Assembly: GCA_016185305.1 (NCBI GenBank)
Contig: JACPNV010000001.1
Coordinates: 97,906-161,905, forward strand
Direction: 5' to 3'
Source: Actinomycetota bacterium
Lineage (GTDB): Bacteria; Actinomycetota; Acidimicrobiia; Acidimicrobiales; Acidimicrobilacustridaceae
DNA: 64,000 nucleotides
Part shown: positions 42,447 to 48,210 of the stretch, in pieces
How the letters are laid out: the number at the start of each line of letters is the position of its first letter
Numbering within the stretch: the first letter of the stretch is position 1
The notes under the pieces: model-generated
The model's input: only the letters and a program-made list of their open reading frames with translations
Databases searched by the model: none
Told to the model about the DNA's origin: nothing
Program-made: the position numbers and the translations under genes

Positions 42447-43514
42447 TCAGCAGAGGTTGGGCACGGTGGGGGTCACCGACACGATGCCCTCGGCCACGCT
42501 GTTCACGAAGGCCGGGTCGTCCCACGCTTCGGTCGGGTGGCCGAGCGCCGTGAACCATGATCGGCCCTTGCCGATCGTTCGGCACCAGATGATCGGATGG
42601 TCGGCGCCCATCCGGCCGTCGCGATAGGTCGACTCGTCGACCGTGGCGAGCACGCGCACGCATCGGCGCGGGTTGGACCGGAAGTCGTACCACTCGTCGG
42701 ATCGCGTCCACCGGTCTGGGAGCGCGGCCGTCGACGGGTGCTGCTCGTCCTCGACGACCACCACACCCTCTTGGACCTCAGGGTGCCGGTCGAACCGCGC
42801 GCCGAGCAAGGTCTCGTAGAACGGCCACTCGTACTCGGTGTCGGCGGCGGAGTGGATGCCGGCCCAGCCGCCCCCGCCCCGCACGTACTGCTCGATGGCG
42901 AGCTGCTGCTCGTCGTTCACGACGTCGCCGGTCGTGTCGAGGAAGACGATGGCACTCAGCCCTTCGAGCGCATCGGCGGTGAAGACTTGGGGATCGTCGG
43001 TCGTGATCACGGTGAACCCTCGGTTCTGCAGCTCTTTGGAGAGCGCGTCGGCTGCCTTCGGGATCGAGTCGTGCTGGAAGCCGGCCGTCCTGGTGAACAG
43101 GATGACTTTGGCCTGATCGTCCGCGGGCGGTCCGGGCGGCGCGGTGGAACCATCGGGCACGCAGCCTTCCGGGACGGTGCCAGGTGATGAGGCTCGCGGG
43201 CCTGCCGTCGTGCCCGGCGGCGCGGGGTACTTGATGGAGAGCGAGCCGGCGTCGTCGGTCTGTGTGACCTGGACCGATCCCGAGAAGCCGCCCTCCGCGG
43301 TGAAGGTGCAGGTGAAGCTGGCACCCTGCTCTGCGCGCACGTCGGGGGGACACGCGAGTGCCAATTCCGAGAGGCCAGGTTGCTGTGAGCGCATCTTGGC
43401 CGCGATCTTCTCGTTGAGGTCCGAGGCAGACAGCGCACGGGTGGCACACGCGGTGCCGAGGACGGCCACGATCGCTGCGATGGCGAGGGCGCGACTCGGC
43501 ACTCGTCCGTTCAC
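42447..43514 (-). CDS. Lipoprotein with DUF4333-like N-terminus fused to a ThuA-like domain
   Basis: Lipobox LGTACAT; CPPDVRAEQGASFTCTFTAEGG; VILFTRTAGFQHDSIP...GGGWAGIHSAADTEYEWPFY. Confidence 0.85.
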   Translation of the reverse strand: MNGRVPSRALAIAAIVAVLGTACATRALSASDLNEKIAAKMRSQQPGLSELALACPPDVRAEQGASFTCTFTAEGGFSGSVQVTQTDDAGSLSIKYPAPPGTTAGPRASSPGTVPEGCVPDGSTAPPGPPADDQAKVILFTRTAGFQHDSIPKAADALSKELQNRGFTVITTDDPQVFTADALEGLSAIVFLDTTGDVVNDEQQLAIEQYVRGGGGWAGIHSAADTEYEWPFYETLLGARFDRHPEVQEGVVVVEDEQHPSTAALPDRWTRSDEWYDFRSNPRRCVRVLATVDESTYRDGRMGADHPIIWCRTIGKGRSWFTALGHPTEAWDDPAFVNSVAEGIVSVTPTVPNLC

Positions 43515-43919: not shown

Positions 43920-45380
43920 CTAGGTGTCGGCCACCGGGGGCTCGTGCTCGCCGTGGTGGGGGTCGCCGAGCTTGGCGACGGCGGGTGCCTTGTCGCCGGA
44001 AGTGTGCGCGTCGGGTGACGGCACGACGGGATCGTGCGGCGAGCCCGGTTCGCTGGCTTCGAGCCCCGGCCGCGGTAGCGGTGGTGGCTCCGCGAACGGC
44101 GTGGCGCCAGATGGGTCGAGGCAATCGAGGAGGTTGCTGGCGTTCGCGTCTCGGCGGGTGAACGCGCCGAGGTTCCACTTGGTCGACAGCAGCCGCAGCA
44201 CCGAGGTGTGGTCGTGGATGATCGGTGACACGTAGTCATGCTTCGCGAACGGTGACACGACGACGCAGGGAACGCGGAAACCGAGACGGTCCCATCCACC
44301 CGGTTCGTGGGTGCCTTCGAGCAGAGCGGGCGCCACGTCGTCGGGAGGGACGGCTTCGGGTGGCGGCACGTGGTCATAGAACCCGCCGTGCTCGTCGTAG
44401 GTCCAGACCAGGAGCGCGCGCGGCCAGCACGGGCTCTGCAGCACGGCGTTGATGATCGACGCGGCGAACGCCTCGCCGTCCTGGATGTCTTGCGGGTTCT
44501 CTTCGCTCAGGTCGGTGCGGGGTGTCACGAGCGCGAACGGCGGGAGCGTGCCCGCCTTCGCGTCCGCGTAGAAGTCGTCATAGGTGCGACCCATGCTGTC
44601 GTTGGCGAACCACACGGGTGGGTAGAGCGCCGGCTCGGGCAGGTCACCGAAGTAGTTGCGCCATTCGACGCTGTAGTCGTTGAGCCTGTCGAACAGCGTC
44701 CCGTTCGGGGGCACCTCGGCCAGGTCGGGCATGTCGGTGACGATCATCCCCATCGACGTGCCGCTCCAGAGGAACCGCCGGTTGGGGAACGTCTGGGTCA
44801 GCGCCGAGCAGAAGTAGCGATCGCACAGCGGGAAGGTCTTGGCCAGGCCGTAGTAGAAGGGGATGTCGGCTTCGGTCCAGTACCCCATGGCCGTGTAGCG
44901 GCTGCGGCTGCGCACGAACCCGTCGTTGGCTCCGCCGTTGTGCTGGATGTGGCAGGCGTTCCAGTCGGGGCAGGGTTCGAGCTCGGGCTGGGTGGTCGCG
45001 GGGAAGTGGAACGCGCGCACCGGCTTGCCGTCGAAGTCGGGATTGGCGTTGGTGGGCGAGCCGTCGCCGTCGAGCGTGAAGCCATCGCCGCGGCCGAGCA
45101 TCCCGAAGTAGTTGTCGAACGAATGGTTCTCCATCACCAGCACGACGATGTGCTCGATCTGGGGCAGCAGGTCGGTGCCCTCGGCTTGGGACGGATCGGG
45201 GCGATCACCCGGTTCGAAGATCGGCCCGTCGGGGTGGATCCACGACGTCTCGGTGCTTCCGAGCACCGGTGCCCTGCCGAATCGCTCCATCGGCTGGAGG
45301 TTAGGGGATGCGCCGAGCGGCGTGTCCGTGGGGGGACTTGAACCCATGATCGGGCTGTTCCGACCAGTACCAGCGGGCAC
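43920..45380 (-). CDS. Phosphoesterase / phospholipase C-like protein (start may be near 45290)
   Basis: IEHIVVLVMENHSFDNYFGML; LLVWTYDEHGGFYDHVPPPEAVPPD; FGRAPVLGSTET. Confidence 0.88.
   Translation of the reverse strand: MPAGTGRNSPIMGSSPPTDTPLGASPNLQPMERFGRAPVLGSTETSWIHPDGPIFEPGDRPDPSQAEGTDLLPQIEHIVVLVMENHSFDNYFGMLGRGDGFTLDGDGSPTNANPDFDGKPVRAFHFPATTQPELEPCPDWNACHIQHNGGANDGFVRSRSRYTAMGYWTEADIPFYYGLAKTFPLCDRYFCSALTQTFPNRRFLWSGTSMGMIVTDMPDLAEVPPNGTLFDRLNDYSVEWRNYFGDLPEPALYPPVWFANDSMGRTYDDFYADAKAGTLPPFALVTPRTDLSEENPQDIQDGEAFAASIINAVLQSPCWPRALLVWTYDEHGGFYDHVPPPEAVPPDDVAPALLEGTHEPGGWDRLGFRVPCVVVSPFAKHDYVSPIIHDHTSVLRLLSTKWNLGAFTRRDANASNLLDCLDPSGATPFAEPPPLPRPGLEASEPGSPHDPVVPSPDAHTSGDKAPAVAKLGDPHHGEHEPPVADT
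45323..45350 (-). other. tRNA 3'-end fragment (T-loop plus acceptor 3' strand), candidate att remnant
   Basis: Minus strand ...ATGGGTTCAAGTCCCCCCACGGACA; no matching 5' acceptor strand (GTCCGTG) about 75 nt upstream. Confidence 0.55.
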
Positions 45381-45513: not shown

Positions 45514-46350
45514 CTATGCACCCAGCGCGTCGATGAAGCCGGTGCACACAGCGCGGATCCGGTCCTCGGGCACGGCGACTCGAAGCGACCGCACGGCCAA
45601 CTCCACTCCGGGGGCGCGTCGCACGCCGAACTGCGCTCGGAGCATCTCGATCCCTCGCTGCGCCGGACCGGCGACACGCTCGTCATCGAGCAGGCTCGAC
45701 ATGACCTCTGCCACGCGACCCGGCGGGGTTGTGAGGAAGATCCGGTAAACGTCGGACGCGTCCTTTTCCTTCAGCCGGTCTGGCCGAGCGTCCTCGGCGA
45801 GTCGGTCGTTGATCTTGTGCGCCTTGGCGATCAGCAGCGCCGTCGGTCCGGCGACCCGTGCGTCGACCGTTCGGTGATCGTCCTGGTCAAGGGCACCGAT
45901 CAGCAGGAAGTCGTTGTCGATGGTCGCGGCCTCCAGTCCGGCCGCCTTGCGGGCGGCGCGCTTGCCATGCACCCCGAGCCGAGCACCTCGCGTGCCACCT
46001 GGCGGCGCGACGCCCGCAGGGACGATGAGGTCGACGGCGACCTCGATTTGGTCGCCATCGATCTCGACGGTCTGCGTCCAGACACCCGGCTCCTCCGCGC
46101 CCGCCCGACCGGCGTGGCTGAAGCGCGCGCGCATGGCGTCCTCGAGGAGGGGCGAGTTCGCCAGGCGATCGCTGGCCAGGGCGAGGTCGCCATCGGTCGT
46201 GTATTCGGCGACACCCGATAGCTCCACCCGCGTACGTAGGTACACGGCTTGTGCGCCGACGACGATGACGGCGTCCCGGTGCTCGGCGAGGTCCTCCAAG
46301 GCGTCGAGCAGCACGCGCCGAGCCGCAAGGTGTAGCGGGTCGACGGTCAT
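45514..46350 (-). CDS. Nucleotidyltransferase-fold protein, AbiEii-like putative toxin
   Basis: VVGAQAVYLRTR...YTTDGDLAL (G[GA]xAxxxR...DxD); ATGA overlap with the upstream wHTH gene. Confidence 0.7.
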   Translation of the reverse strand: MTVDPLHLAARRVLLDALEDLAEHRDAVIVVGAQAVYLRTRVELSGVAEYTTDGDLALASDRLANSPLLEDAMRARFSHAGRAGAEEPGVWTQTVEIDGDQIEVAVDLIVPAGVAPPGGTRGARLGVHGKRAARKAAGLEAATIDNDFLLIGALDQDDHRTVDARVAGPTALLIAKAHKINDRLAEDARPDRLKEKDASDVYRIFLTTPPGRVAEVMSSLLDDERVAGPAQRGIEMLRAQFGVRRAPGVELAVRSLRVAVPEDRIRAVCTGFIDALGA

Positions 46351-47477
46351 CGTCGTGCTCGTTCTCGGTAGTCAGCGAGCGACTTCCATCGCCACGTCTC
46401 GGGGTTCTGTTGCATCCACTCGATGAGCGCTTCTCCCTCGGCGGGCATCCGCCCGCTGCCACCGAGGCAGTCGACGACGAGCTGGGGCAAGTTGACGAGC
46501 TCGACCCGGTCGACCGGCCGTGTGTCTTCGACGACTCGATCGTTCGGTGGCCAGAGCAGCACGACATCGGCGCCCTCATCCGTGGGCAGCAGCCCGAGCT
46601 TCGACTGGATCTCGTCGAAGTACGGAAGTCCTCCTTGGGGCTTGAGGTAGAGGACCAGCAGCGCGGGCGCCGCGACCGGAGCCGTCTGGACGGCGGCGAA
46701 AGATCCCGTCACAACCACACGCGGTGCCACCTTCGACGTGGCCAACGCCTCGAAGGCGCCGCGCGCGCCGTTCGGGGCGACGAAGCCTCTCATCGTGTTG
46801 ACGCCGAACAGATCGACGGACTGACCGCGTAGCCGGAGCATGGCCGGCCAGTCCGCTTCCTCGACCGGACCGCGGGGCTCACGGCGGATCAAGGCTTCAT
46901 CAGCCAGACGGTCGAGGATGCGGCTGACGTAGCCGCGGCTGATCCCGGTTTGCTTCTCGATGTCGATGACGCCGTACGGGGGCTCGATCTCGGCGAGGAA
47001 CCGGATTACTCGCCCGGCTTCGACGCCGCTGACCCCTGCGCTTCGCCTCGATGTCGATGAGCGGGGCCGGCGATCGGCGCCAGCGGTCTCCACGAACATC
47101 GGTGGGTTGCGCATGACGAGTCGGGTGTTGCCCGTGAGGTCGAGGTAGCTGATGTCCTCCTCCGCAAGCAGCTCACGTGTGCGCGACGAGAGGAACTCGC
47201 TGACTAGCAGGATGGGGCGGTCGCCTGATGCCTCACGGAGCCGGCGTGTCAATCCGCCCAGCAGCCGCTCGACATCGGCGGCCGCGAAGCTCGGCCTCGC
47301 CTCGACGATGACACTCCCGAAGGTCCCGCTGAACTGCGAGTTGAACGTGAACAGGGCGTCGCCCTCGCCCGACCCCGCCCCTTGGCCCTCGGCGCGCTCG
47401 ACCGACCATCCCGGTGGTAGCCGCTCGGCGAGCAACTCCAGTGCTGCCTCGATCAGTTGCCCCTGTGTCTGTGACAT
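46347..47477 (-). CDS. Winged-helix protein, AbiEi-like putative antitoxin/autoregulator
   Basis: EDISYLDLTGNTRL, IDIEKQTGISRGYVSRILDRLADEALI wHTH, C-terminal LLVLYLKPQGGLPYF...VNLPQLVVDCLGGSGRMPAEGEALIEWM. Confidence 0.7.
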   Translation of the reverse strand: MSQTQGQLIEAALELLAERLPPGWSVERAEGQGAGSGEGDALFTFNSQFSGTFGSVIVEARPSFAAADVERLLGGLTRRLREASGDRPILLVSEFLSSRTRELLAEEDISYLDLTGNTRLVMRNPPMFVETAGADRRPRSSTSRRSAGVSGVEAGRVIRFLAEIEPPYGVIDIEKQTGISRGYVSRILDRLADEALIRREPRGPVEEADWPAMLRLRGQSVDLFGVNTMRGFVAPNGARGAFEALATSKVAPRVVVTGSFAAVQTAPVAAPALLVLYLKPQGGLPYFDEIQSKLGLLPTDEGADVVLLWPPNDRVVEDTRPVDRVELVNLPQLVVDCLGGSGRMPAEGEALIEWMQQNPETWRWKSLADYRERARR

Positions 47478-47493
47478 GCCAGCCATTGTATGT

Positions 47494-47562
47494 GGAAACT
47501 CGCTCTTAGTTTTCCATTTATACGAGTTTCTCAGTTCGGGAAACTTGCCAATCTGGGAAACT
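47494..47562. promoter_or_regulatory. Candidate operator cluster upstream of the AbiE-like operon
   Basis: Perfect inverted repeat gaaactcg (47495-47502)/cgagtttc (47523-47530), plus gggaaact at 47538-47545 and 47555-47562, in AT-richer DNA. Confidence 0.5.
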
Positions 47563-47780
47563 GCGTGGGGAACAGCCCCTCTGGTCGTCAGCGAACGGCC
47601 GTCGGAGGGTTGTAGCGATCGGGTCGGAGGGTGCGCGAGGATGAGGGCCTTGCGTGTCGAGGTCTTGCCTCGACCGTCGGGCCAGCGACGACCACCGCTC
47701 AGGGTCGTCCTTCCGCCGCCGTCGAGCGCGTCCCCTCTTGTGTGAGGCACTACGTCGGCCGAGTGCCGAAGGAGGGCCCG

Positions 47781-48210
47781 ATGCCATCGTCGAGCCGCAA
47801 CAACGTCCGCAAGCGCGGCAACACCTGGACCTACTACGTCTACGTCACCGACGGAGCCGGCGACCGCAAGCAGGTGTCCAAGGGGCGGGTTCCGCACCCG
47901 CAAGGAAGCCGAGGCCGCCCGCATCGAGGCGCTGGCCGCGCTCCAGTCAGGCACGTTCGTGCGTCCCGATCGGTTGACCGTGGCCGACTTCCTCGTCGAC
48001 GAGTGGCTGCCCACCCAGCTGCCGCCGACGCTAGAGGAGAGCACCTACGCGTCGTACGAGCGGTACATCCGCCTGCACGTGGTGCCGTACGTCGGCGGGT
48101 CCTGCTGCAGAAGCTGACACCGATGGACCTGAATGGCCTCTACCGCACCCTGACTCGACACTGGCCGGCGGACGCCGGGGCCGCCGAAGCGCCAGCACGA
48201 TCCCGCGGTC
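47781..48210 (+). pseudogene. int: Tyrosine-recombinase integrase remnant, two frameshifts, no catalytic domain
   Basis: Three frames in order: KRGNTWTYYVYVTDGAGDRKQVSKG | GFRTRKEAEAARIEALAALQSGTFVRPDRLTVADFLVDEWLPTQLPPTLEESTYASYERYIRLHVVPYVGG | VLLQKLTPMDLNGLYRTLTRH. Confidence 0.85.

Follow-up and report, generated by a model that had tools for sequence, protein, structure and literature searches.

Gene organization and leader region of the operon

The 64-kb stretch of DNA analyzed here (the window) carries on its minus strand two overlapping genes. The upstream gene (46347..47486, with the ATG at 47486) encodes a COG4861/AbiEi_2-like protein of 379 amino acids, the putative antitoxin and autorepressor, and the downstream gene (45514..46350) encodes the putative toxin, a protein of 278 amino acids with a nucleotidyltransferase (NTase) fold of the AbiEii/COG4849/MenT-like type. 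The stop codon of the antitoxin ORF and the start codon of the toxin ORF are merged in an ATGA (46347..46350), as read directly from the sequence, and we propose that this overlap mediates translational coupling of the toxin to the antitoxin. The original prediction had placed both genes, their strand and the overlap correctly. Comparison with the nearest relative (L002), which is ~70% identical, yielded dN/dS values of ~0.21 and ~0.18 for the gene pair, with third codon positions being the most variable, indicating that both genes are real and under selection. Directly 3' of the toxin gene, a Phosphoesterase-family protein (PF04185, E 1.5e-69 in Pfam) is encoded at 43920-45380 (minus strand), and the product of another minus-strand gene (42447-43514) combines an N-terminal DUF4333 domain with a ThuA domain.

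The antitoxin gene is preceded by an AT-rich leader (47487..47565, minus strand) that contains an operator-like array. The GC content of positions 47487-47562 is 0.408, compared with 0.689 for the window, and only 0.006% of the 76-bp stretches are equally AT-rich, in line with the earlier description of this leader as AT-richer than its surroundings. The repeats noted in that description are all present, namely a perfect 8-bp inverted repeat, GAAACTCG/CGAGTTTC (47495-47502/47523-47530), and two copies of GGGAAACT (47538-47545 and 47555-47562). The two copies of GAAACTCG in the leader are the only ones in the 64 kb, and 5 of the 11 AAACT/AGTTT copies in the window reside there as well. Taken alone, these repeats could be a chance find. 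They are part of a set of half-sites with the consensus AGTTTCCC / GGGAAACT, located at 47565-47552, 47548-47535, 47535-47522 (reverse) and 47503-47490.

Analysis of the leaders of related operons revealed a new, family-wide operator signature. The 85 leaders (150 bp each) contain 186 TTGCC/GGCAA half-sites, compared with 36 +/- 5.5 in dinucleotide shuffles and ~26 downstream of the toxins, and the top hexamer, AGGCAA/TTGCCT, is found 94 times against 8.0. An operator motif trained on the leaders of the relatives, with the window and L002 left out, ranked the window leader 1st of the 851 window tiles, with the best sites at 47548-47535, 47552-47539, 47565-47552 and 47503-47490. Because this motif is loose (~759 expected sites, low information) and its score partly reflects AT content, which is extreme in the window leader, we take the ranking as support only and the single sites as no proof. 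Alignment of the whole leader with that of the nearest relative showed no convincing colinear footprint, and a simple promoter and terminator scan detected nothing on the minus strand, including no sigma-70-like promoter. On inspection by eye, repeats are also seen in some leaders of AbiEi_2 operons, where they take the form of GTTTCCCAG/GGGAAAC or GTTTCA/TGAAAC (L133, L132 and L136) or of several TGTTCA/TGAACA copies 5' of the antitoxin gene (L115-L121). Given the half-site signature shared across the leaders of the family, it is likely that the operon is autoregulated through these candidate operator sites. Autoregulation via promoter repeats, as in the AbiE system of Streptococcus agalactiae (PMC3985639), would be expected in the window pair as well.

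Relationship to the COG4861-COG4849 gene pairs

Searches of family and defense libraries missed the window pair. In Pfam, the toxin showed no match and the antitoxin matched only a MarR-like HTH model; neither NCBIfam nor PADLOC produced a match to the pair above the cut-off, and both proteins fell short of the curated cut-offs and were absent from the matches when their own genome was searched with PF08843 and PF09952. Sequence searches of the PDB seeded with the single proteins or with the toxin alignment resulted in chance matches only, and those seeded with the antitoxin alignment retrieved HTH regulators, a weak EndoMS match and nothing else. Because direct database searches with the window pair gave little, we collected relatives from whole genomes, genome contigs and plasmids. 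Two distant relatives serve as bridge members to named families: in L017, residues 216-356 of the antitoxin match PF09952 (AbiEi_2) at 1.1e-13, and in L019 the toxin passes the PF08843 (AbiEii) cut-off. Since these relatives do pass, the Pfam miss reflects a limit of model detection rather than a lack of homology.

Adjacent genes for the two proteins are the rule among the relatives. The antitoxin gene is next to the toxin match and on the same strand in 103 of the 105 loci records, some of which stem from the same locus retrieved more than once. Longer gaps separate the genes in two of these 103 pairs, and the commonest spacing is -4.

For comparison, we used AbiEi_2 proteins from the same phylum that were found by family search. 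These consist of an N-terminal domain ending in F/Y-[ILV]-D-x-x-G-N, a wHTH and the AbiEi_2 domain, in this order, and in most of the loci examined their genes are directly followed by an NTase-like gene. Profile comparison, which the original prediction had named as a check for both proteins, came out in its favor, with the antitoxin matching the AbiEi_2 proteins and the toxin matching their NTases. With the bridge members left out, hhalign aligned the antitoxins with the AbiEi_2 (COG4861) proteins at a probability of 100 and E 2.8e-42 over 338 columns, and the toxins with the COG4861-linked NTases at E 2.5e-15 over 226 columns; a deeper set including the bridge rows brought the latter value to E 6.8e-28. 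Furthermore, the N- and C-terminal domains of the antitoxins each matched the AbiEi_2 proteins when compared separately (E 1.2e-25 and 1.7e-26, respectively).

PF09952 corresponds to COG4861 and PF08843 to COG2253/COG4849 (PMC7251935), and the COG4861-COG4849 pair has been described, beside AbiE, as a second gene pair (PMC3985639). From the profile alignments and these family equations, we place the window pair in the COG4861-COG4849 wing of the AbiE/MenAT kind as a divergent member, a new branch within a kind already known and not an unprecedented system. The AbiE-like toxin-antitoxin layout that had been claimed for the locus is thus borne out by the end-to-end profile homology, the bridge members, the catalytic residues discussed below, the pairing of the genes and the operator signature. 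Overall, we consider an autoregulated toxin-antitoxin operon of this wing the most credible reading of the sequence evidence, with a probability of about 85%, and the operon is real and probably functional.

The window pair shares with the COG4861-COG4849 pairs the gene order, the small overlap or gap, the three-part antitoxin, the NTase toxin and the presence of half-site repeats in many leaders. It differs from them in motif I of the toxin (GAQA in the window, GGWA in those pairs), in scoring below the respective Pfam models (PF09952 and PF08843 / NTP_transf_8), and in the half-site, which is TTGCC/TTTCC in the window branch and TGTTCA in some COG4861 leaders.

Antitoxin domains and the predicted toxin active site

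The antitoxin is predicted to consist of an N-terminal PD-(D/E)XK-like domain (residues ~8-134), a wHTH (~155-211; MarR_2 match at 157-204, E 5e-6 in Pfam) and a C-terminal AbiEi_2-like domain (~215-379). The original prediction spoke of a wHTH protein with a YLDLxGN motif; the motif is indeed present (YLDLTGN, residues 114-120), but it closes the N-terminal domain and lies outside the wHTH (~157-204). The same prediction called the N-terminal domain additional, which holds relative to antitoxins of the COG5340 type, such as S. agalactiae AbiEi, but not relative to COG4861 antitoxins, in which this domain is standard. Accordingly, we rejected the N-terminal domain as a peculiarity of the window antitoxin, given that the AbiEi_2 proteins share it. 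The AbiE system of S. agalactiae (COG5340-COG2253) likewise encodes the wHTH antitoxin first and the NTase toxin second; by domain layout, however, COG5340 AbiEi is a two-domain protein that carries its wHTH at the N-terminus and lacks the nuclease-like domain predicted for the window antitoxin.

Structure models were built with AF2 from alignments without the plasmid-derived rows. For the antitoxin model (pLDDT 92.8), all Foldseek matches were weak and none reached E <= 0.001. The best E value (~0.01, probability 0.99) was obtained with EndoMS/NucS, and restriction enzymes were matched weakly too; presumably, these matches belong to the N-terminal domain, suggesting that in the model it resembles the PD-(D/E)XK nuclease fold. 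MenT1 was also matched (probability up to 0.99, E ~0.05), and we tentatively assign this match to the C-terminal domain of the model by its strand-helix order, the Foldseek output giving no aligned residues.

The resemblance to nucleases suggests an alternative in which the N-terminal domain has PD-(D/E)XK nuclease activity and the pair forms a two-enzyme, restriction-like defense system rather than a toxin-antitoxin. Apart from the EndoMS/NucS match, the NucS model weakly matches 3 of 20 antitoxin members, D43 is found in 65 of the 82 antitoxin rows, and E/D-x-K/R occupies positions 62/64 in most of them. However, Lys64 is replaced by Arg in the window antitoxin and in 27 of the 82 rows, the conserved Pro69-Arg70 is missing from the window copy as well, and the Foldseek E values reach 0.01 at best, so we regard this possibility as very unlikely. 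The D...ExK signature is partly conserved across the family, but with Arg in place of its Lys the window copy is unlikely to act as a nuclease.

Within the toxin-antitoxin reading, a more speculative scenario can be considered, to which we give limited credence. The pairs might form an uncatalogued, widespread sub-branch of AbiE whose antitoxin is made of two retired enzymes, the nuclease-fold N-terminal domain and a catalytically dead nucleotidyltransferase C-terminal domain resembling the class of the toxin, that would inhibit the toxin by mimicry or hetero-dimerization. Since a common origin of the C-terminal domain and the toxin found no support at profile level (probability 4% in direct comparison), this scenario builds on the weak structural match to MenT1. 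NTase resemblance of the same sort has been reported for COG5340 AbiEi (PMC7319586).

AF2 modeled the toxin with high confidence (pLDDT 95.3). The stretch GAQAVYLRTR...TTDGDLAL, originally assigned to the NTase-fold protein, is located at toxin residues 32-58. In the toxin alignment (n=80), G32, D53, D55, D107, K176, R183, K196, D197 and D200 are invariant, and position 51 is occupied by Thr in 78 and by Ser in 2 of the sequences. The protein fits the motif set of Pol-beta NTases (hG[G/S]...DhD, K, D) with some departures: the second residue of motif I is Ala (GA, not G[G/S]), the DxD spacing is 19, not 15, and the middle residue of DxD is Gly/Ala. MenT1 of Mycobacterium tuberculosis requires D41, K137 and D152 (PMC10435456), and auto-phosphorylation occurs at T39 of MenT1 and S78 of MenT3, two residues before the first Asp (PMC10435456, PMC11375011). 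By motif position, as opposed to structural superposition, T51, D53, K176 and D200 of the window toxin correspond to T39, D41, K137 and D152 of MenT1, a likeness to the T/S, D, K, D catalytic set of the MenT toxins of MenAT1/MenAT3 (PMC10435456). According to PMC11375011, members of COG2253 and COG4849 have a conserved Ser/Thr at the auto-phosphorylation position; the window branch has it too (T51), which makes T51 a predicted phospho-acceptor. The window pair differs from MenAT in the protein families from which the antitoxins are drawn, those of MenA being other ones (PMC11375011), and in that MenT is absent among the best 50 Foldseek matches listed for the toxin model; this search resulted in weak matches to other Pol-beta NTases and none at E <= 0.001. 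At the level of profiles, the COG4861-linked NTases match MenT1 in the PDB at 5e-5.

The same profile search retrieved lincosamide resistance proteins at E 0.4, and lincosamide and aminoglycoside adenylyltransferases have the Pol-beta NTase fold. Together with the fact that NTP_transf_8 carries no stated function in Pfam, this points to an alternative in which the operon is a non-toxic regulator-enzyme unit, with the NTase modifying a metabolite, a protein or an antibiotic and the HTH protein acting as its repressor. Likewise, any stable two-gene unit of an enzyme and its regulator would leave few toxins unpaired. Nevertheless, the antitoxin aligns end to end with AbiEi_2, including the C-terminal domain, the MenT catalytic set is kept together with the phospho-acceptor Thr, and the distribution of the operon is mobile and cassette-like, all of which make a regulator-enzyme unit unlikely.

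In type IV toxin-antitoxin systems, the toxin arrests growth and the antitoxin rescues the cell without forming a stable complex, and MenT toxins act by attaching nucleotides to the 3' ends of tRNAs. For the branch that includes the window pair, we infer toxicity, neutralization, DNA binding and a role in defense or stabilization. For the AbiE/MenAT-kind operon, we envisage that the antitoxin wHTH would occupy the promoter array of AGTTTCCC-type half-sites and hold operon expression at a low level, with the ATGA overlap coupling the translation of the two proteins. The toxin, as a putative Pol-beta-fold nucleotidyltransferase, would add nucleotides to 3' ends of tRNA, its supposed target by analogy with MenT1 and MenT3, and stop translation. 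The C-terminal domain of the antitoxin would bind the toxin and/or trigger its auto-phosphorylation at T51, and so neutralize it. The module would probably stabilize mobile DNA and/or provide abortive phage defense. The conserved operator half-site and the predicted phospho-acceptor T51 supplied here for the branch make it possible to address whether COG4861-type systems share the antitoxin-induced auto-phosphorylation known for MenT1 and MenT3.

Distribution and mobile-element context

The scan of genome contigs confirmed 397 relatives (80 of them fetched), mostly from Actinomycetota, with some in Myxococcota, Chloroflexota and other groups. In PLSDB, the toxin was identified on 20 plasmids, 15 of which come from Streptomyces; no toxin was found in phage records. 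Thus, at least several hundred pairs of a helix-turn-helix and a hypothetical protein, largely from Actinomycetota and also from Streptomyces and Rhodococcus plasmids, can now be placed in the AbiE/MenAT kind.

When the window was compared with the surroundings of the nearest relative (L140), DNA similarity was confined to 45531-47450, that is, to the operon without its flanks. Divergently oriented and adjoining the operon is a truncated and frameshifted N-terminus of a tyrosine integrase (47781..48200, plus strand, right edge approximate; Phage_int_SAM_3 at E 1.3e-6 and a weak Arm-DNA-bind_4 match). On the other side, 3' of the toxin gene, lies a relic of 23 bases (45323..45345, minus strand) that resembles the 3' end of tRNA-Leu(GAG), with 2 mismatches to the tRNA-Leu 3' end of the same genome, and is a possible remnant of an attachment site; the window contains no intact tRNA. 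In the nearest relative, an intact tRNA-Leu(GAG) gene ends ~640 bases upstream of the antitoxin gene. The broken integrase, the relic and the intact tRNA-Leu(GAG) of the relative suggest past integration at a tRNA-Leu gene, but comparing the window with the relative did not reveal attachment sites that form a matching pair. As judged from the sequences, the distribution of the operon is mobile and cassette-like.

With a broken integrase and a tRNA relic adjoining it, the operon itself might be viewed as the inactive leftover of an integrated element, retained by chance. Both reading frames are intact, however, dN/dS relative to the nearest relative is ~0.2, and every catalytic residue and the operator array have been retained, which renders such decay most improbable.

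The genome from which the window derives encodes five other AbiEii (PF08843) matches over the cut-off and one below it (C94, C90, C67, C41 and C22) and, by these matches, is rich in AbiE-type toxins. The Brevibacterium plasmid pAP13 (L034:4023-5837) encodes a toxin relative whose gene follows an Xre-type HTH_3 regulator and a 49-aa ORF rather than a COG4861-type antitoxin, which suggests exchange of the antitoxin partner.
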